Part shown: one piece after another, positions 13,334 through 47,075 of the stretch
How positions within the stretch are numbered: position 1 is the stretch's first letter
Layout: each line of letters begins with the position of its first letter
From: Geoglobus acetivorans
GTDB taxonomy: Archaea > Halobacteriota > Archaeoglobi > Archaeoglobales > Archaeoglobaceae
Direction: 5' to 3'
Assembly: GCF_000789255.1 (NCBI RefSeq)
Contig: NZ_CP009552.1
Location: forward strand, 434,001-498,000
Length of the DNA stretch: 64,000 nt
Notes under the pieces: model-generated
Database searches by the model: none
What the model was told of the DNA's origin: nothing
What the model saw: only the letters and a program-made list of their open reading frames with translations
Made by a program: the position numbers and the translations under genes

Positions 13334-14830
13334 ATGATAGTGGGTATAGATGTCGGGGGGACAAATACCGATGTAGCGTTTCTCTCAGAAAATCAGGTTA
13401 AAACCTTCAAATTTCCAAATGAGTACGGTGTTGAAAACATTCTGGACAGGATTTCCAGAGAGGTGGACATTAAGCGGTCCAGATTGATCATAAGCACGTC
13501 TGTCCCTCTCAATGCCCTTACAAGCGAGTTTGACAGGATAAAGGTTTTGTCTCTCGTTTTTCCCGGTCCCGGACTGGATTACAGCCGTTATGGCATCGTC
13601 CTGAGGGGTTACGTCAATCACAGGGGCATTTATGTTGAGGAGATTGACGAGGATGAGATTGTAAAGGCTCTGGAAAGTGGAGAATATGATGCGCTGGCAA
13701 TCTCGTCAAAGTTTTCGATAAGAAATCCGGTTATAGAACACAAGGTTTCGGAGGTGGCCAGGAGGTTCATAGATGGAGACAGGATAGCCCTGAGCCACCA
13801 CGTTGGCCTGATAAACTTTCCCCTGAGGATAAATACCACAATTCTGAATGCAAAGATCGCTGAAAAGGTTAAAAAACTCACGGAGAGTGTTAAGGAGATC
13901 AAAGAGGAATTTTTCTATTACAAGGGGGATGGCGGAATAATACCCTGGCAGATAGCCCTGAGAAATCCTTTGGAACTTTACAACTCGAGTCCAGCGGCGG
14001 TGGCTTACGGAGCGTATTTTCTGACAGGAATTAAGGATGCTCTCGTCATTGATATTGGAGGAACGACGACAGATTTCGTTCTTTTGAAAGAAGGGGCACC
14101 GGAAGTTGAGGAAAAGGTGGAAATCAATGGTATGAGGACCCATGTGAGGTGTGTGAGGAGCCTTTCACTTCCCTATGGAGGGGATAGCCTCTACAGCGGT
14201 TCTTTGATGCCATACAGGGATGGGAAATCCGTGGCTTTTGGAGGAGACGCCCCGACCCTGACAGACCTGCTCAATGCTCTGGGGGCAGAGATTGGAAGCT
14301 TCCAGAGGTCGAGGGAAAAGGTTGGAAGGGAAGAGGCAGAAAGAGAGGTTGAAAAGTATGTGAATTCCGTAGCTGAGGTCGTCAGGAATTATCCGGCAAA
14401 GACGATAATCGGAACGGGATATCTCGCCCAGCACCTTGTTCCCAGAATTGCTGAGGCAGCGGGGAAGAGGTACACAATACCCGAGCATTACGGCTCGGCA
14501 AATGCCGTGGGTGTTGCGGTATCAAGGATAAGTCTCACGCTCTATGCCAGATTCGATACCGAGAGGAGGTTAGCAATATTCAACGGAGAGGTAGATCAGG
14601 AGCAGTTTGAGAGCATATCCGGGCATCCGGATGATGAGGAGCTTGTGGAACTTGCGATTGAGAGAGCTAAAGAACTGGCTTTGAAATATGGTGCAAATGA
14701 AAGAGATCTTGCAGACATAGATGTTATGTATTTCAACTCGTTCAATATAGTCAAGGGGGGCATAAAAAGAGGCAAGATTGTCGATGTTATCGTTCAGATA
14801 AAGCCGGGATTGTGTTGTGATGTGCTATGA
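13334..14830 (+). CDS. Hydantoinase/oxoprolinase (HyuA)-like ATPase-fold protein
   Basis: A 498-residue protein. GIDVGGTNTDVAF at the N-terminus is the hydantoinase/oxoprolinase phosphate-binding loop, and a second ASKHA-type loop, VIDIGGTTTDFVLLK, lies mid-protein. It is shorter than bacterial HyuA (about 650-700 residues) and no HyuB partner is present. It belongs to a family that couples ATP use to amide or lactam opening, but the substrate is unknown. A TATA element (ACTTTAAATA, about 13301) lies 26 bases before the ATG. The stop overlaps the deacetylase start by four bases, so the two probably act together. Confidence 0.8.
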   Translation: MIVGIDVGGTNTDVAFLSENQVKTFKFPNEYGVENILDRISREVDIKRSRLIISTSVPLNALTSEFDRIKVLSLVFPGPGLDYSRYGIVLRGYVNHRGIYVEEIDEDEIVKALESGEYDALAISSKFSIRNPVIEHKVSEVARRFIDGDRIALSHHVGLINFPLRINTTILNAKIAEKVKKLTESVKEIKEEFFYYKGDGGIIPWQIALRNPLELYNSSPAAVAYGAYFLTGIKDALVIDIGGTTTDFVLLKEGAPEVEEKVEINGMRTHVRCVRSLSLPYGGDSLYSGSLMPYRDGKSVAFGGDAPTLTDLLNALGAEIGSFQRSREKVGREEAEREVEKYVNSVAEVVRNYPAKTIIGTGYLAQHLVPRIAEAAGKRYTIPEHYGSANAVGVAVSRISLTLYARFDTERRLAIFNGEVDQEQFESISGHPDDEELVELAIERAKELALKYGANERDLADIDVMYFNSFNIVKGGIKRGKIVDVIVQIKPGLCCDVL

Positions 14831-15912
14831 AAACCGGGATCGTTTACCATCCTAAATATCTGGAGCATGAACAGTCGCCAACTCACCCTGAGAGAAGGGA
14901 GAGACTCGCATACACTCTGGATCAGCTCATGGAGGAGGGTATCTTTGACCTCGAAAATATTGTCCTTCTCGAGCCTTTTGAAGCTGAGATTCAGGACGTG
15001 CTGGAGGTTCATACGAGAGAGTATGTTGACTTTCTGATTAAGACGAGTGAAACAGGGGGTTTCATCGATCTGGACACCAATGTGCCTGTCGGTCTTGTTG
15101 ATGTGGCTCTGCTGGCTGCTGGAGGTGCAATAAGGGCTGCACAGGCTGTTATCGAATCAGAGGTTGACAACGCATTTGCAATGATTCGTCCACCAGGGCA
15201 TCATGCAAAGCCCCACACCGGTGCCGGTTTCTGCTACCTCAACAACATGGCCATCATGGTCAGGTGGATTCAGAAAAAGGGCTTCCGGAAGGTGGCGATA
15301 ATTGACTGGGATGCTCATCATGGGGACGGAACACAGGAGATATTTTATGACGATGATTCAGTTCTCTTCATCTCCACTCACCAGATGCCGCTGTATCCTG
15401 GAACAGGGTATCCGTACGAAACCGGAAAGGGTTGCGGTGAGGGATACACGATTAACGTACCTCTGCCTCCAGGTACGTCTGATGAGGGCTATTTCTACGT
15501 TTTTGAGAAGGTTATCGAGCCGGTCATCCGGGAATTTGAGCCCGACTTCATTGCGGTATCTGCCGGACAGGACAATCACTTCACCGACCCGATAACGGGC
15601 CTCGCACTGACTGCAAAAGGTTATGCCGAGATAATGAAGAGAGCCGTAAATCTTGCCAGCGAGCTTTGCGAGGGAAGGATCGTTACCGTTCTGGAAGGTG
15701 GATACAGTGTTGAGCATGCCCTTCCATACACGAATCTTGGAATAATCGCTGCTATGGCTGGGATGGATATTTCAAACATTCGGGAGCCAGAAAACTACCT
15801 GTCTGAACTCAGGTGGAGAAAGAAATACTATGCTACCGACAGGGTTGTGGAAAATGTTGAAGAGGTCAGGAAAATTCATTCGAAATACTGGGAATGTTTT
15901 GGGGATGATTAA
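14827..15912 (+). CDS. Histone deacetylase/AcuC/acetylpolyamine amidohydrolase family
   Basis: A 361-residue zinc hydrolase. PPGHHAKP has the active-site histidine pair at 125-126. DWDAHHGDGTQ supplies Asp162 and His164 as zinc ligands, SAGQDNHFTDP the third Asp, and LEGGYS the catalytic tyrosine. The substrate may be an acetylated protein, acetylpolyamine or another acyl amide. Translational coupling to a HyuA-like protein favours a small-molecule amide pathway over chromatin, but this is inference. Confidence 0.85.
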   Translation: MKTGIVYHPKYLEHEQSPTHPERRERLAYTLDQLMEEGIFDLENIVLLEPFEAEIQDVLEVHTREYVDFLIKTSETGGFIDLDTNVPVGLVDVALLAAGGAIRAAQAVIESEVDNAFAMIRPPGHHAKPHTGAGFCYLNNMAIMVRWIQKKGFRKVAIIDWDAHHGDGTQEIFYDDDSVLFISTHQMPLYPGTGYPYETGKGCGEGYTINVPLPPGTSDEGYFYVFEKVIEPVIREFEPDFIAVSAGQDNHFTDPITGLALTAKGYAEIMKRAVNLASELCEGRIVTVLEGGYSVEHALPYTNLGIIAAMAGMDISNIREPENYLSELRWRKKYYATDRVVENVEEVRKIHSKYWECFGDD

Positions 15913-15973
15913 TCGTTTTTTAATTCCCCTAAATCACTATTAATTGTTTATTAATTCATTTGTATTTATTTGT

Positions 15974-15997
15974 TTGCAACTTTGTGCAATACCGCAA
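15974..15997 (+). promoter_or_regulatory. Candidate operator, TTGCAA-type, upstream of polyferredoxin TATA
   Basis: The segment contains TTGCAA, TTGTGCAA and GCAA blocks and ends just before the TATA element. It matches 18 of 24 positions of a site, on the opposite strand, at the biotin carboxylase promoter (47075-47098). Position upstream of TATA would suit an activator. The link is inferred from the shared sequence only. Confidence 0.45.
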
Positions 15998-16008
15998 ATA
16001 TTAAATAC
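15998..16008 (+). promoter_or_regulatory. TATA box for the polyferredoxin gene
   Basis: ATATTAAATAC is centred 27 bases before the ATG at 16030, implying a leaderless transcript. This favours 16030 over the longer frame from 15970. Confidence 0.65.
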
Positions 16009-16029
16009 AAAAATCTGTTCGCAAAAAAC

Positions 16030-17094
16030 ATGACAGTTTCCTTTAAGCCAGAATACTGCACGGGATGTGGGTTATGTGAAGTGACGTGCCCGAAATCGGC
16101 AATAAACGTCATCAAAACCGTTTCAGGTTATCACGCTGATATTGAGGGTTGCATTGACTGTGGTGTTTGCACAGTTTACTGCCAGTATGGTGCGCTGACA
16201 CTTGAAACCTCACCTTTCAGCCAGATTCTTGACAGGATAAAATATTCCAAGACAGAAGTTAACTTTGAAAACTGTGTTTTTTGTGGAAAATGTGCTGAGA
16301 ACTGTCCCAGGGGTGCAATCGACGTTGAAAAAAGACTTGAGAAGGACAGGGTCAGGCTCGGTTATGTTCGCATTGGAGAGGGGTGCATTCAGTGCAGGAA
16401 CTGTGTGATGTTCTGCCCCACCGATGCCGTCAGAATAGTCAGGGGGAGGCCTGAGATTGACGAGAGTAAGTGTATTTACTGCCAGATCTGTCAGGGTGTC
16501 TGTCCCAAGGATGTTATTGAGATCCACTGTGATTCCTGTAAGGTCAAGTTCGAGTATGCTGTCTCCGGACACGTGGACGTTGATATTGGCTGTTCTCTCT
16601 GCGGAACGTGTGAAGAGGTCTGTGAGTTTGATGCCATTCATGTTAACAGAATATTCGAGGGAGAGCAGAGCTTTGATGGAGACAGGTGCCTTGGGGATGA
16701 ATGCACGATCTGCATAAACGTCTGTCCAAACAGTGCGATATCATACGAATATGGAGCCGGGAAGATTGTTGCGTTCGATGACTCATGCAATTTCTGTGGC
16801 AAGTGTGAAAAGTACTGTCCGGGGAATGCGATAGAGATTGAAAGGTTCGTCTCCGAAAGGTATGAGGAAATCCATCTTCCGGGGAAGATAAGTGATTATC
16901 ACGAGATTCATCCGGTCATAGAGGTCAGTAGCAAGTGCATAGGATGCCATTTCTGCGAATCTGTCTGTAAAATTGCTAAGGAAATCAACCTGTCTGAAGT
17001 CAGGGGTGAGGTCGAACCTGAGAGCTGCACAGCATGCGGGCTGTGTGAGAGTGTTTGCCCGATGGATGCCATAGTTGTCAGGGAGAAGCTGTAA
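16030..17094 (+). CDS. Polyferredoxin with ten 4Fe-4S motifs (FwdF-like)
   Basis: About 354 residues made almost entirely of ferredoxin repeats. I count ten CxxCxxCxxxC-type motifs: CTGCGLCEVTC, CIDCGVCTVYC, CVFCGKCAENC, CIQCRNCVMFC, CIYCQICQGVC, CSLCGTCEEVC, a stretched CLGDECTICINVC, CNFCGKCEKYC, CIGCHFCESVC and CTACGLCESVC. The length is like that of the FwdF polyferredoxin of formylmethanofuran dehydrogenase, which has eight clusters. It must carry electrons between redox enzymes. No Fwd or Mvh subunit is beside it, so its partner is open. Confidence 0.8.
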   Translation: MTVSFKPEYCTGCGLCEVTCPKSAINVIKTVSGYHADIEGCIDCGVCTVYCQYGALTLETSPFSQILDRIKYSKTEVNFENCVFCGKCAENCPRGAIDVEKRLEKDRVRLGYVRIGEGCIQCRNCVMFCPTDAVRIVRGRPEIDESKCIYCQICQGVCPKDVIEIHCDSCKVKFEYAVSGHVDVDIGCSLCGTCEEVCEFDAIHVNRIFEGEQSFDGDRCLGDECTICINVCPNSAISYEYGAGKIVAFDDSCNFCGKCEKYCPGNAIEIERFVSERYEEIHLPGKISDYHEIHPVIEVSSKCIGCHFCESVCKIAKEINLSEVRGEVEPESCTACGLCESVCPMDAIVVREKL

Positions 17095-17137
17095 TTCTCC
17101 GTATTTTCTTATTTTTATTGCCAGAGGATGTGATAAA

Positions 17138-17148
17138 GTCTAAATAAA
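17138..17148 (+). promoter_or_regulatory. TATA box for the MoaD-like gene
   Basis: GTCTAAATAA is centred 26 bases before the ATG at 17169, which supports that start over the ATG at 17148 that lies inside the element. Confidence 0.55.
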
Positions 17149-17168
17149 TGAATAGCCAATCTTGCAGT

Positions 17169-17435
17169 ATGGTTGTGATAGAATTATTTGCAACCCTGAG
17201 AGAGAGATACGGGAAGAGAGTTGAGGTTGAGGCGGAGGATTTTGAAGGGGCTATAAGGAAAGCATCTGAGGTTTTTGGTGAGAGCTTTTACAGCGAGGTT
17301 TTTGAAGAGGATGGTTCGATCAGGGATGACAGAATAGTTCTCATAAATGGCAGAAACGTTAAGGATCTTGAAAAAATGCCGAAGCTGAAAAAAGAAGATA
17401 AGATAAGTATATTTCCTCCGATCGCCGGTGGTTAG
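17169..17435 (+). CDS. MoaD/ThiS-like ubiquitin-fold sulfur carrier
   Basis: An 88-residue beta-grasp protein: VVIELFATLRERYGK at the start, IVLINGRNV in the middle and FPPIAGG at the end. The C-terminal Gly-Gly is the adenylation and thiocarboxylation site of MoaD-like carriers and SAMP modifiers. It may serve molybdopterin or tungstopterin synthesis or protein tagging. It ends in a 4-base convergent overlap with the GPN GTPase gene. Confidence 0.85.
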   Translation: MVVIELFATLRERYGKRVEVEAEDFEGAIRKASEVFGESFYSEVFEEDGSIRDDRIVLINGRNVKDLEKMPKLKKEDKISIFPPIAGG

Positions 17436-42643: not shown

Positions 42644-43726
42644 CTAATAGCTCCTGAGCATTTTCACAAACTCGTCGAAGAAGAAGTACGTGTCATGCGG
42701 TCCTGGTCCCGCCTCCGGATGATACTGGACGCTTATAAGCGGTATCTCTTTATGCCTCATCCCCTCTACAGTCATATCGTTCAGGTTGATCTGGGTAACC
42801 TCAAAACCTTCCGGCAGGGTTTTTTCGTCAACGGCAAATCCATGGTTCTGGCTCGATATGAACACTCTGCCTGTTTCAAAATCCTTTACAGGCTGGTTTG
42901 CACCGTGATGTCCAAATTTGAGCTTGAAAGTCCTGGCTTTGAACGCTCTCGCAATGAGCTGGTGTCCCAGGCAGATGCCTGCAAGCGGGAGCTTCCCTGC
43001 CAGCTTCTTTATGGTCTCGACACTTTCCGAGATTCTGGCAGGGTCTCCAGGACCATTGGAGATGAATATTCCGTCAAAGTCGTATTCAAGTATTTTTTCA
43101 GCTGGATAGCTGTACGGGAACAGGGTAACGCTCACACCCCTGAGCAGAAGCTGCCTTACAATGCTGTTCTTTATTCCGTGATCTATTAATGCAACTTCAA
43201 ACTTCTGCTCTTCTGCCTCAAATCTTTTCGGCTCTCTGACGCAGACCTTATCCACGAGGTCAAGCTCTGTTATTGAGGGCTGGTTTTTCGCCCTTTCAAC
43301 GAGTTTCTCTCTATCAATGTCATCTCCAACGGCTATAACTGCTTTCATTGCTCCATGAATTCTCGTTTTTTTGGTCAACATTCTCGTGTCAACACCCTCT
43401 ATTCCGGGGACTCCATATTCTTTCAGGAGCTCATCAACACTCATCTCACTTCTCCAGTTGCTCGGATGCCTGCAAAGCTCCTTTACAACGAATCCTTCCA
43501 CCTTCACTCCGTCGCTTTCGAAATCCTCTCTGCAAACTCCGTAATTGCCTATGAGCGGATAGGTCATCATGAGAATCTGACCCTTGTAGCTCGGGTCTGT
43601 CAGAGCCTCAACATAACCCGTCATGGCTGTATTGAACACAAGCTCTCCTTCAGCATCTTTCTCAGCACCGAATGCCTTTCCCTCAACCACCGTCCCATCT
43701 TCAAGGGCGAGATAAGCTTTAACCAT
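42644..43726 (-). CDS. carA: Carbamoyl phosphate synthetase small subunit
   Basis: A 360-residue amidotransferase subunit. The N-terminal domain has EGELVFNTAMTGYVEALTDPSY, and the C-terminal class I domain FISNGPGDPARI, LAGICLGHQLIARA (catalytic Cys) and VQYHPEAGPGPHDT (His-Glu). It feeds ammonia to CarB. It overlaps purC by eight bases. Confidence 0.97.
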   Translation of the reverse strand: MVKAYLALEDGTVVEGKAFGAEKDAEGELVFNTAMTGYVEALTDPSYKGQILMMTYPLIGNYGVCREDFESDGVKVEGFVVKELCRHPSNWRSEMSVDELLKEYGVPGIEGVDTRMLTKKTRIHGAMKAVIAVGDDIDREKLVERAKNQPSITELDLVDKVCVREPKRFEAEEQKFEVALIDHGIKNSIVRQLLLRGVSVTLFPYSYPAEKILEYDFDGIFISNGPGDPARISESVETIKKLAGKLPLAGICLGHQLIARAFKARTFKLKFGHHGANQPVKDFETGRVFISSQNHGFAVDEKTLPEGFEVTQINLNDMTVEGMRHKEIPLISVQYHPEAGPGPHDTYFFFDEFVKMLRSY

Positions 43727-44744
43727 CGTACACCTCCATAAACTCGGAAATTCTTTTCATCACGTCTTTCAGACTGGGCGAGTCGAAAAACCTCATTCCT
43801 GTTATTTCGTTGCAGGCTGACATGTACATCTCCGAAACAGCATTTTTCAGGTCTTCTGGAAGTTTGGGAGGTCTTCCTGCGAGGACTCTCCAGTTCTCCT
43901 CTCCCTTGAACTTTTCGACAAGTCTGTACCATTCCGTTTTTCTGTAGTATTTTCTTAGGATCTCCTTGCTCATCTCAATACCATCGAAACTGAATCTGCA
44001 CTCGTCCGGTGTGCCGACAGCATCGACCAGCATTATTTTTCTGTTCTCGTCCAGTGCAAACTCAACCTTGCCGTCCAGGTTTTCTATGCCTGCCTTCCCA
44101 ACCTCTTCGGTTATGATCCTGTCAATTTTTTCAGCAAGCTCTACAAGCTCTTCAAACTCCTCTTCGCTCAATCCCGAAATCTTCAAGGCCTCCTTTCTTC
44201 TGAGATATCTGTCCGTGTCCTCAAGCTTGGTGGAAAAATCGATAACCGGTTTTTCAAGCCTTGAACCTGGACCTGGTATTTCCGTCAGCCCGAGGTCCTC
44301 GGGACTGATTTCTCCTTTCTCCAGCCTCCTGAAAACGCTGCTGCCTTCAGGCAGGGAATTCCTGTAAATCACTTCGAGAGGTATGAGGTAATTACCATTC
44401 AGATTTTTGAAAATGCTGTAATCGTATCCCGATCCAGTTTTTTCCGGCTCCACCACTCTGACCAGCCTTACCTCCATTTCATTAACTGCATCGTCCAGCT
44501 CGTTGAGCCTCTTTACCTTTCCGCCTTCAACAAGACCGATGTAGTGGGTTGAAATGCCGTCATTCTCAAGAATCTCGAAGAAATAGGCAGATATGAGACA
44601 GAGAGCTTTACCCTTGTTCTCTATGTGATCTGACATCTCTCCATAGTCGAAAACGGAATACCGGTCTGAAAAGAGAAACCTTCCGATCCCGGTTCTGTTT
44701 TCTTCCGGTTTTTTGATAACTGTCAGGTCTTTAACACTACCCAT
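43719..44744 (-). CDS. purC: SAICAR synthetase
   Basis: A 341-residue enzyme joining CAIR and aspartate in purine synthesis. FLFSDRYSVFDYGEMSDHIENKG, VIYRNSLPEGSSVFRR and GKVEFALDENRKIMLVDAVGTPDECRF are family motifs. It is longer than the usual 235-residue bacterial form. A strong AGGAGGT site precedes the ATG, and a TATA-like GTATTTAATATG inside the end of purE could give an internal promoter. Confidence 0.93.
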   Translation of the reverse strand: MGSVKDLTVIKKPEENRTGIGRFLFSDRYSVFDYGEMSDHIENKGKALCLISAYFFEILENDGISTHYIGLVEGGKVKRLNELDDAVNEMEVRLVRVVEPEKTGSGYDYSIFKNLNGNYLIPLEVIYRNSLPEGSSVFRRLEKGEISPEDLGLTEIPGPGSRLEKPVIDFSTKLEDTDRYLRRKEALKISGLSEEEFEELVELAEKIDRIITEEVGKAGIENLDGKVEFALDENRKIMLVDAVGTPDECRFSFDGIEMSKEILRKYYRKTEWYRLVEKFKGEENWRVLAGRPPKLPEDLKNAVSEMYMSACNEITGMRFFDSPSLKDVMKRISEFMEVYDG

Positions 44745-44770: not shown

Positions 44771-45244
44771 TTAAATACTTTTTGCTTCCTCATCGGCTCT
44801 CTCAATTTCCTCTTTCTTTTTTCTCTGATATTCTCTGACCTTTTCGGCCACTTCTCTGCTTTTTAAGGCGAATATCTTTGCCACCGCAAGGGCAGTATTT
44901 TCGGCGTAAATTACGAGCATCGGGGCAACACCCGAAGGCATGTTTATGCTTGAGAGAATGTCCATGCCAGCAAATTTATCGCTGATGGGTGGCGAGGCGA
45001 TTACCGGCCTGAATGTGTTTGCATCTGCAAACCCGCTCAGGGCATTGCTTCTTCCTGCAATCGTTACGAACACCACGTCATCATCCTCGTATTCTCTCAG
45101 AATTTTCAGGGCTTTTTCGGGAGTTTTGTGAGCCGATGCAATTCTCAAAACGGCTTCAATACCGAAAAATTTCAGCCTTTCAGCTATTTTCTTTCCGTAT
45201 TCCATATCACTTTTCGAACCCATAATTATTACTGCCTTCATCAC
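44771..45244 (-). CDS. purE: AIR carboxylase, class II-like PurE
   Basis: A 157-residue PurE. IIMGSKSDMEYGKKIAERL and RIASAHKTPEKAL are general. VTIAGRSNALSGFADANTF with PVIASPPISDKFAGMDILSS resembles the AGRSN loop of class II enzymes such as animal PAICS rather than the GGAAHLPGM loop of bacterial class I PurE. Class II enzymes carboxylate AIR directly with CO2 and need no PurK. It overlaps the regulator gene by four bases and is followed by purC, the partner fused to it in PAICS. Confidence 0.9.
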   Translation of the reverse strand: MMKAVIIMGSKSDMEYGKKIAERLKFFGIEAVLRIASAHKTPEKALKILREYEDDDVVFVTIAGRSNALSGFADANTFRPVIASPPISDKFAGMDILSSINMPSGVAPMLVIYAENTALAVAKIFALKSREVAEKVREYQRKKKEEIERADEEAKSI

Positions 45245-45531
45245 TCCCTCCTCCTGAGTTCTTCAACAACTCTCTCATACACCTCGAAAAGGTCTTTCAG
45301 AGACTTTAATTTTATAAAATAGTATTTTTCAGGGTGTTTTACCTCGTAATCCAGTATTCCGAGGTCGTAAAGCAGTTTCAGATGTCTTGATGCGTTGTAT
45401 TCTGAAATACCGAGTCTTTCGGCAATTTCATGCACGCTGAGCTTTTCGTTTTTCATGATTTCCTTCAGGATTTTTCTCCGTATTCTTGCCCTCAGCGCTC
45501 TTGCCAGTCTTTCGTCGGGCATCACATCCAC
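45241..45531 (-). CDS. ArsR-type winged-helix regulator
   Basis: A 96-residue DNA-binding protein. [33 protein letters not shown] is a clear ArsR helix-turn-helix and wing. There is no cysteine metal site, so it is not a classical metal sensor. It is translationally coupled on both sides (10 bases with the biotin carboxylase gene, four with purE). It may regulate its own operon, perhaps at the TTGCAA site at 47075-47098; this is inference. Confidence 0.85.
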
Positions 45532-47075
45532 CCCAGGCTTCTCAGTCTGTGGTATATCTTCCAGGGCTGGCTGACCTTTGCCTCAACAAGTCCCTCTATT
45601 CTTTCGTTTTCAAGATATGCCATAACCGCCGATACTGCGATTGCCACTGGATCGTAATCCTTTCTGACTCCATTCATTCCACGGAAAATGTCGTCCAGCC
45701 TGTGCTTCAGGTGCCTGATGTTTTTGATCGAAGCAAGAACTCTTTCCGGGATGTGTCTCTCGTCAACAAACTTTGTGTGGGTGTTGCCCTTGGCGAACTC
45801 CTCATCCTCCACAACGACCATGTGGAACGGGATGTTCGTCTCCACTCCCTCGATTATGTACTCGTAGAGCGCCCTTCTCATCCTGGCAATTGCCTCTATT
45901 CTGGTTCTTCCCCAGGTTATAAGCTTGGATATCATCGAGTCATAGTATGGTGAGATTTCATAACCCATGTGCACTCCGCTATCCACCCTTACTCCCGGAC
46001 CTCCGGGGGATCTGTAATGCGTTATCCTGCCACTTCTCGGAAGGAAGCTTACAGGGTCTTCGGCATTTATTCTCGCCTCTATGGCATGTCCTCTGATCCT
46101 GACGTCCTCCTGATCGAAACTTATCCCGGTTCCGTATGCTATCCTGATCTGTTCCTTCACTATATCCATCCCGGTAACCATCTCGGTTATTGTGTGCTCA
46201 ACCTGCAATCTTGTGTTCATCTCCAGGAAATACAGCTCTCCATCCTGATACAGGAACTCCATTGTGCCTGCGTTCGTGTATCCAATGTGTCTTGCACCCT
46301 TCACGGCGATTCTTCCAAATTTTTCCCTCATCTCCTCGTCGAATATTGGTGATGGGGCCTCCTCGATCAGCTTCTGATGCCTTCTCTGAATGCTGCACTC
46401 CCTCTCGCCGAGATGGAGGACCTTGTTTCCATCGGACAGAATCTGGAACTCTATGTGTCTGGGTTTTGGAAGGTATTTTTCAATGTAGACTGTTGAATCC
46501 CTGAAATACTTTTCACCGAGCTTTTTGCTTTTTTCAAACGCCCTCCTGACCTCTTCGCTGCTGTAGGCTATTGTTATACCTATTCCACCCCCACCTCCGC
46601 TGGCTTTAATTGCCACAGGGTACCCAATTTTTTCAGCAAAATCAACGGCATCATCCTCGCTTTTGAGGACGTCACTTCCGGGTACCACAGGTACTCCTGC
46701 TTCCTTCATCAACCTCCTGGCGCTGATTTTTGACCCCATTGCCTCGATAACCTCAGGTTTTGGTCCTATGAAGACGAGACCTTCCTCCTCACATCTCCCG
46801 GCAAACTCAGGATTTTCTGCGAGGAATCCGTATCCGGGGTGTATTGCCTCAGCCCCGCTCCTTTTTGCAGCATCGATTATCGCGTCAATGTTCAGGTAGC
46901 TTTTTGATGGCTCGGGCTCTCCTATGAAGTAGCATTCATCAGCATAAACTCTGTGAAACGCATGCAGGTCAGCTTTGGAGTAAACAGCAACAGTTTTAAT
47001 CCCGAGCTCCTTACAGGCTCTCATAACTCTAACTGCTATCTCTCCTCTATTTGCAATCAAAATCTTCCTGAACAT
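45522..47075 (-). CDS. pycA: Biotin carboxylase subunit (pyruvate or acyl-CoA carboxylase)
   Basis: About 517 residues. [71 protein letters not shown] and [20 protein letters not shown] define an ATP-grasp biotin carboxylase. The C-terminus ends without a biotin attachment MKM. It carboxylates biotin using bicarbonate. Archaeal homologues are PycA or AccC; which applies depends on a partner not in the window. The ATG at 47075 is about 28 bases from a TATA element. Confidence 0.92.

Follow-up and report, generated by a model that had tools for sequence, protein, structure and literature searches.

Two promoters in the 64,000-nucleotide stretch of Geoglobus acetivorans DNA analysed here (the window) carry similar 24-bp sequences, one before a polyferredoxin gene and the other at the start of a biotin carboxylase gene (pycA), and the question raised by this locus is whether both are targets of a single transcription factor and, if so, of which. 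The earlier note, made from the letters of the window, had placed the two 24-mers, found them identical at 18 of 24 positions, and set one directly upstream of a TATA box and the other directly downstream of one; all of this agrees with the window sequence (Table 1). In our judgement the whole is best explained, with a probability of roughly 0.8, if the motif serves as operator for a small, metal-site-free ArsR-type protein encoded within the pycA operon itself.

Table 1. Features of the window that bear on the shared motif (positions are those of the window)
Feature	Position	Strand	Basis
Putative operator upstream of polyferredoxin	15974-15997	+	TTGCAACTTTGTGCAATACCGCAA; exact match to TTGYRNNNTTGYRCAANNNYRCAA; flush against BRE/TATA
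Predicted TATA of polyferredoxin, TTAAATA	16001-16007	+	Read from sequence; kept in Geoglobus relatives
Polyferredoxin, 354 aa, multiple [4Fe-4S] motifs	16030-17094	+	Pfam Fer4 x6; FwdF-like, under family cut-off
carB, carbamoyl-phosphate synthase large subunit, 1076 aa	39404-42634	-	Assigned by position and size (ORF directly after carA)
carA, carbamoyl-phosphate synthase small subunit	42644-43726	-	TIGR01368 502 bits
purC	43719-44744	-	TIGR00081 253 bits (cut-off 189.9)
purE	44771-45241	-	TIGR01162 147.6 bits, slightly below cut-off 149.6
ArsR-type winged-helix regulator, 93 aa, no cysteine	45241-45522	-	HTH_20 41.3 bits (cut-off 27), HTH_5 40.4 bits (cut-off 22)
pycA, biotin carboxylase / pyruvate carboxylase subunit A	45522-47075	-	NF006406 802 bits (cut-off 739); Pfam Biotin_carb_N, CPSase_L_D2, Biotin_carb_C
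Putative operator between pycA TATA and start codon	47075-47098	-	TTGCAATATTGTGCAACTATGCAA; exact match to TTGYRNNNTTGYRCAANNNYRCAA; final base = A of ATG
Predicted TATA of pycA operon, TATTTAA	47100-47106	-	Read from sequence; position kept in relatives

Form and specificity of the motif

The bare identity of 18 in 24 positions is no evidence by itself, because 433 of 3000 random 24-mers from the window had a partner elsewhere in it that matched at least as well. The conserved blocks form a 24-bp palindrome, TTGCA-N3-TTGYRCAA-N3-TGCAA, with the half site TTGYRnnnTTGY; the earlier note had recognised the shared motif and overlooked the palindromic form of the shared bases. A DNA hairpin, formed by the single strand at the pycA start, folded no better than shuffled sequences (z 0.14).

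The symmetric pattern TTGYRNNNTTGYRCAANNNYRCAA was found at three places in the 1.86-Mb genome, which was scored as a whole by pattern search only: those of the window and a third at 953981. Among 55 genomes of the Archaeoglobaceae it occurred at eight places in six genomes, and a search of 393 genomes of the phylum returned the same eight places only, all in Archaeoglobaceae that bear the regulator gene. It was absent from the 338 phylum genomes outside the family, and a reversed control pattern gave no match among the genomes listed in either search. Seven of the eight exact places lie at the pycA start (in the window's genome, G000, and in G014, G027, G028 and G030) or before the polyferredoxin gene (G000 and G025); the eighth, at 953981 in G000, falls within a mobile element. 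Allowing mismatches added pycA of G025, G026 and G023 and the polyferredoxin gene of G026 and G014; the weaker matches (two to three mismatches) were mostly not common to different species, with positions relative to genes established for part of them only. Within the window, a scan with a position weight matrix (PWM) placed the two sites at the top with 30.7 and 27.1, the next best score being 12.0.

The placement of the sites is conserved as well. The palindrome at pycA ends on the A of the start codon (position +1 of the coding sequence) in 8 of 8 genomes from three genera, and the polyferredoxin site is identical in G025 and deviates once in G026, its distance to the start codon unchanged. 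The scan of the genome and its relatives that the earlier note had proposed thus gave no coding matches to the exact pattern elsewhere in the genome and showed both sites kept in relatives, so that neither of the outcomes that the note had named as fatal (many random hits in coding regions, or no conservation of either site) was found. Judged by its sequence and conservation, the 24-bp motif of the two promoters is a real palindromic DNA switch, conserved in several genera of heat-loving archaea.

Genes at the two promoters

On the minus strand the genes follow one another in the order pycA-regulator-purE-purC-carA-carB, and the stop of pycA overlaps the start of the regulator gene in the sequence TGATG, as does the stop of the regulator gene with the start of purE; because of these overlaps, the three genes very likely share one transcript. 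The earlier note had overlooked that the regulator gene, purE, purC, carA and carB are members of the carboxylase operon. G001 and G031 encode a CarB-like protein at the corresponding place. The site at pycA occupies the entire gap between TATA and the first codon, the TATA centre lying 28 bp before the ATG; at the polyferredoxin gene the TATA centre lies 26 bp before the ATG, and the site ends 3 bp before TATA and overlaps the BRE. These spacings probably reflect the geometry of putative leaderless archaeal transcripts.

The polyferredoxin is present in 23 of the 55 family genomes. It scored 178 bits with the FwdF model NF042909 (cut-off 375), no formylmethanofuran dehydrogenase subunits were found among the family-scanned genes around it, and a better-scoring FwdF-like paralogue is encoded elsewhere in the genome (G000:C1:1561079), beside hdrA2; on these grounds we rejected its assignment as FwdF. 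The proposal that both targets concern one-carbon fixation is correspondingly weak. The polyferredoxin branch of the putative regulon appears labile, since G027, G028 and G030 have a decayed site there and G023 has none, although all four possess the regulator. Hydantoinase-like, histone-deacetylase-family, polyferredoxin and MoaD/SAMP-like genes stand in line at window positions 13334-17435; the first three are also clustered in G023 and G026, with a MoaD-like gene too in G026, which suggests a shared process for this gene cluster. The polyferredoxin gene of the Archaeoglobus fulgidus-like G001 (L068, G001:C1:419980-421050) contains an in-frame TAG, which points to gene disruption or to an error in the sequencing.

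The ArsR-type protein belongs to HTH_5/HTH_20 by curated cut-offs, and scored below that of the SdpR model and below that of the metalloregulatory ArsR model NF033788 (51.8 bits, cut-off 55). No cysteine was present in the window protein or among the invariant columns. The lack of cysteine and of a metalloregulatory signature makes metal sensing unlikely. A single-sequence AlphaFold2 model of moderate confidence (pLDDT 76) has the order H3-24 H30-37 H41-53 E57-63 E66-71 H75-92, and its Foldseek matches, to be read with that confidence in mind, were led by CadC, TFE-alpha and HlyU and also included SmtB and MarR proteins; the nearest solved structure by sequence is CadC. In G007 the regulator gene (L125 near 2157-2237, G007:C65) shows a seeming 1-bp deletion near its start relative to G004, which breaks the frame and may be an assembly error or mark a pseudogene; the operator there is intact.

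Operator and regulator gene across the family

The regulator was found in 16 of the 55 family genomes, and outside the family the 393 phylum genomes yielded none at E<=1e-15. In the A. fulgidus type (G001, G004, G007 and G008) and in G015 it heads purE-purC-carA, away from pycA, and the palindrome lies at, or just before, the regulator's own start codon. In G031 the polyferredoxin gene comes first (polyferredoxin-regulator-purE-purC-carA-carB), and a weaker site lies between its TATA and its start; G009 and G011 have the regulator gene immediately upstream of the polyferredoxin gene, whose promoter bears a divergent site, TTGCTCAATKGTTCAA; and in G014 the pycA-regulator unit and a distant polyferredoxin gene each have a palindrome, both downstream of TATA. 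Across these arrangements operator and regulator gene stay together while the partner genes change. An autoregulatory layout, with the operator at the regulator's own unit and downstream of TATA, was found for pycA-regulator in eight genomes and for regulator-purE-purC-carA in five.

When the promoters of pycA, the regulator and the polyferredoxin were scored with a matrix built from 12 sites, 14 of the 16 regulator-bearing genomes had a clear site (PWM 15.9-33.6) at one of these genes; the exceptions, G009 and G011, scored 9.4 and 6.0, values poorly or not separable from background. No clear site was detected in 57 pycA, polyferredoxin and purE promoters of genomes without the regulator (best score 5.8). 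A second matrix, built from the Geoglobus sites alone as a guard against circularity, ranked the site first at all eight loci of other genera, by a wide margin except in G031 (13.3, next best 12.0). In G029, which belongs to the window's genus, pycA runs straight into purE, the stop of one and the start of the other sharing one TGATG, and the regulator gene is gone; neither pycA nor the polyferredoxin gene of this genome has a site, which amounts to a natural deletion of regulator and operator. Likewise, G002, G003, G005, G006, G050 and G053 have purE-purC-carA but neither the regulator nor a site. On the pycA tree the trait changes five times, four of these changes being forced by well-supported branches, and all contrasts agree, with 4-5 phylogenetically independent contrasts being too few for significance in a sign test (p 0.125). 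The suggestion in the earlier note of one factor for both promoters, with the protein at 45241 as the likely one, gains support from this phylogenomic linkage, and the protein very probably binds the operator in its own operon promoter as well as the polyferredoxin site.

Other readings of the same data were weighed against this. A chance likeness of two AT-rich promoter sequences, devoid of function, could appeal to the frequency of equally good random 24-mers in the window; it is refuted by the conservation data and palindrome specificity and has next to no probability left, because the palindromic form, the phylum-wide specificity, the fixed position at the pycA start in eight genomes of three genera and the conservation in relatives put the motif beyond chance. 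The binder might instead be the bifunctional biotin protein ligase BirA, acting at pycA in response to biotin with the ArsR-type gene as a bystander, since the single biotin protein ligase of the genome carries an HTH domain at its N terminus and pycA is a biotin carboxylase gene. However, the palindrome stands at the regulator-purE-purC-carA unit in five genomes, where there is no biotin gene, and pycA has no site in any genome that lacks the ArsR-type gene. Moreover, the published BirA operator consensus at biotin genes, TTGTAAACC-N14/15-GGTTTACAA (PMC545781), does not fit in sequence or spacing. We rejected BirA on its operator consensus and the non-biotin targets, and consider it very improbable as the binder. 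Finally, another transcription factor may bind the motif, the ArsR-type gene being a co-regulated member of the operon that was gained and lost together with it. The link between protein and DNA is wholly correlative, the independent contrasts are few and two regulator-bearing genomes have divergent sites, all of which would suit such a factor. Against it, the only gene that keeps company with the operator in all arrangements encodes a DNA-binding protein; the partners vary (pycA, purE-purC-carA, polyferredoxin) while the regulator stays; and in G029 the loss of the regulator gene alone from the operon coincides with the loss of the site. We therefore regard a different factor as unlikely, and the ArsR-type protein remains the preferred binder.

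Mode of action, possible signals and further sites

Physical binding by the ArsR-type protein, repression and the sign of control at the polyferredoxin gene are inferred from the sequence, position and conservation of the operator and from its co-occurrence with the regulator gene. A dimer of the protein would bind the palindrome; each half has TTGY directly repeated at 8 bp, so that two dimers are also possible. Archaeal factors known to interfere with RNA polymerase recruitment from downstream of TATA include MDR1 of A. fulgidus, Phr and TrmBL1/Tgr (PMC4158304, PMC2995911). By analogy with such factors, which when bound between TATA and start hinder recruitment of the polymerase, the most likely mode at pycA would be negative autoregulation of the whole operon: binding would block polymerase recruitment and repress pycA, the regulator gene, purE, purC, carA and carB. 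At the polyferredoxin promoter the same factor, sitting flush against BRE/TATA, may either recruit TFB/TBP and activate, or compete with TFB and repress. For TrmBL1/Tgr, sites upstream of BRE/TATA activate and sites downstream, over the start site, repress (PMC4158304); the window's genome, G025 and G026 each have sites on either side of TATA, upstream at the polyferredoxin gene and downstream at pycA. The idea of the earlier note, activation of one unit and repression of the other, has a direct archaeal precedent in TrmBL1/Tgr, and activation at the polyferredoxin gene is plausible on this analogy. The refinement in which both sites repress, with the factor at the polyferredoxin gene keeping TFB off the BRE, has in our view somewhat less than an even chance. 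The overlap with the BRE suits it, as does the site or variant downstream of the polyferredoxin TATA, a repressor position, in G014, G031, G009 and G011; on the other hand, activation has been reported for archaeal dual regulators that bind upstream of BRE/TATA (PMC4158304), and the upstream position is kept in three species (G000, G025 and G026).

The ArsR-type protein and its operator have partial counterparts among known systems. The likeness to TrmBL1/Tgr consists in one archaeal helix-turn-helix factor, a palindromic motif, sites on either side of BRE/TATA and targets in central metabolism. The Thermococcales glycolytic motif of TrmBL1/Tgr is TATCAC-N5-GTGATA, and autoregulation is reported or proposed for some members (PMC4158304). 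Members of the TrmB family have an effector domain, whereas the 93-aa protein is a bare wHTH with another operator, and its candidate targets are pycA, purE-purC-carAB and the polyferredoxin gene; neither the effector domain nor the TGM operator that define the TrmB family was found for it. With ArsR/SmtB autorepressors (CadC, SmtB, SdpR and HlyU types) it shares an operator in its own operon promoter and probably the small winged-helix fold with a C-terminal helix, but it differs from them in having no cysteine or metalloregulatory site, in falling below the metalloregulator and SdpR cut-offs, and in its assignment to biosynthetic carboxylation and nucleotide genes. MDR1 of A. fulgidus is a DtxR-type protein with a different operator and controls a transport operon. 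It is a repressor from the same family of organisms, and its bound form blocks RNA polymerase recruitment near the transcription start (PMC2995911, PMC4158304), as predicted for the window regulator; it is metal-dependent, whereas the window regulator has no metal site. Control of a biotin carboxylase gene by a BirA with HTH, such as this genome encodes, is conceivable in principle, but the BirA operator consensus and targets are unlike those of the palindrome. No earlier description of this regulator-operator pair was found in the open-access papers searched.

To our knowledge, few transcription factors of the Archaeoglobaceae have assigned targets, and the present data provide a concrete candidate regulator-operator pair with a small regulon, whose operon unusually combines anaplerotic genes with those for purines and carbamoyl phosphate. 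PycA, PurE and carbamoyl-phosphate synthase are all established consumers of CO2 or bicarbonate. The regulator might sense CO2/bicarbonate or a direct proxy and coordinate these three enzymes with the FwdF-related polyferredoxin, the carboxylases being repressed and the electron carrier oppositely controlled through the position of its site; this would be an inorganic-carbon regulator in archaea. The inorganic-carbon signal is attractive but speculative, and the scheme in full is improbable; purE, purC, carAB and pycA would be matched just as well by a signal from nucleotides or from aspartate/oxaloacetate. Since the operon genes mostly share CO2/bicarbonate consumption, the question of the effector can be tested with a short list of candidates. 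The archaeal rule that position decides between activation and repression is likewise testable within one family, because the relatives provide natural controls: versions of the operon that have or lack both regulator and operator, and versions of the polyferredoxin gene with the site upstream or downstream of TATA.

Some palindromes lie outside these promoters. In the G. ahangari-like G026, one scoring 24.7 (L115 2029-2052, G026:C1:945428-945451) lies ahead of a DUF4212/sodium-solute-symporter pair, with an AMP-binding acyl-CoA synthetase-like gene on its other side, and is a candidate extra target, and another scoring 26.1 (L114 2042-2065, G026:C1:456641-456664) falls within an endonuclease III-like gene, at its 3' end, and precedes the gene of a FilR1/HVO_A0261-like HTH regulator by about 60 bp; no counterparts of either were recognised at the corresponding genes of G000 and G025 with up to three mismatches. 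The third exact palindrome of the window's genome (G000:C1:953981-954004; L009 4982-5005) is intergenic, with no evident target, in a mobile element that encodes an archaeal phage integrase and a DUF3987 protein, and is followed by further 8-bp-phased TGCACAAC units (TTGCATGTTTGTGCAACTGCACAACTGCACAAGTAAGCAA); it is possibly a hijacked or decoy site for the regulator.
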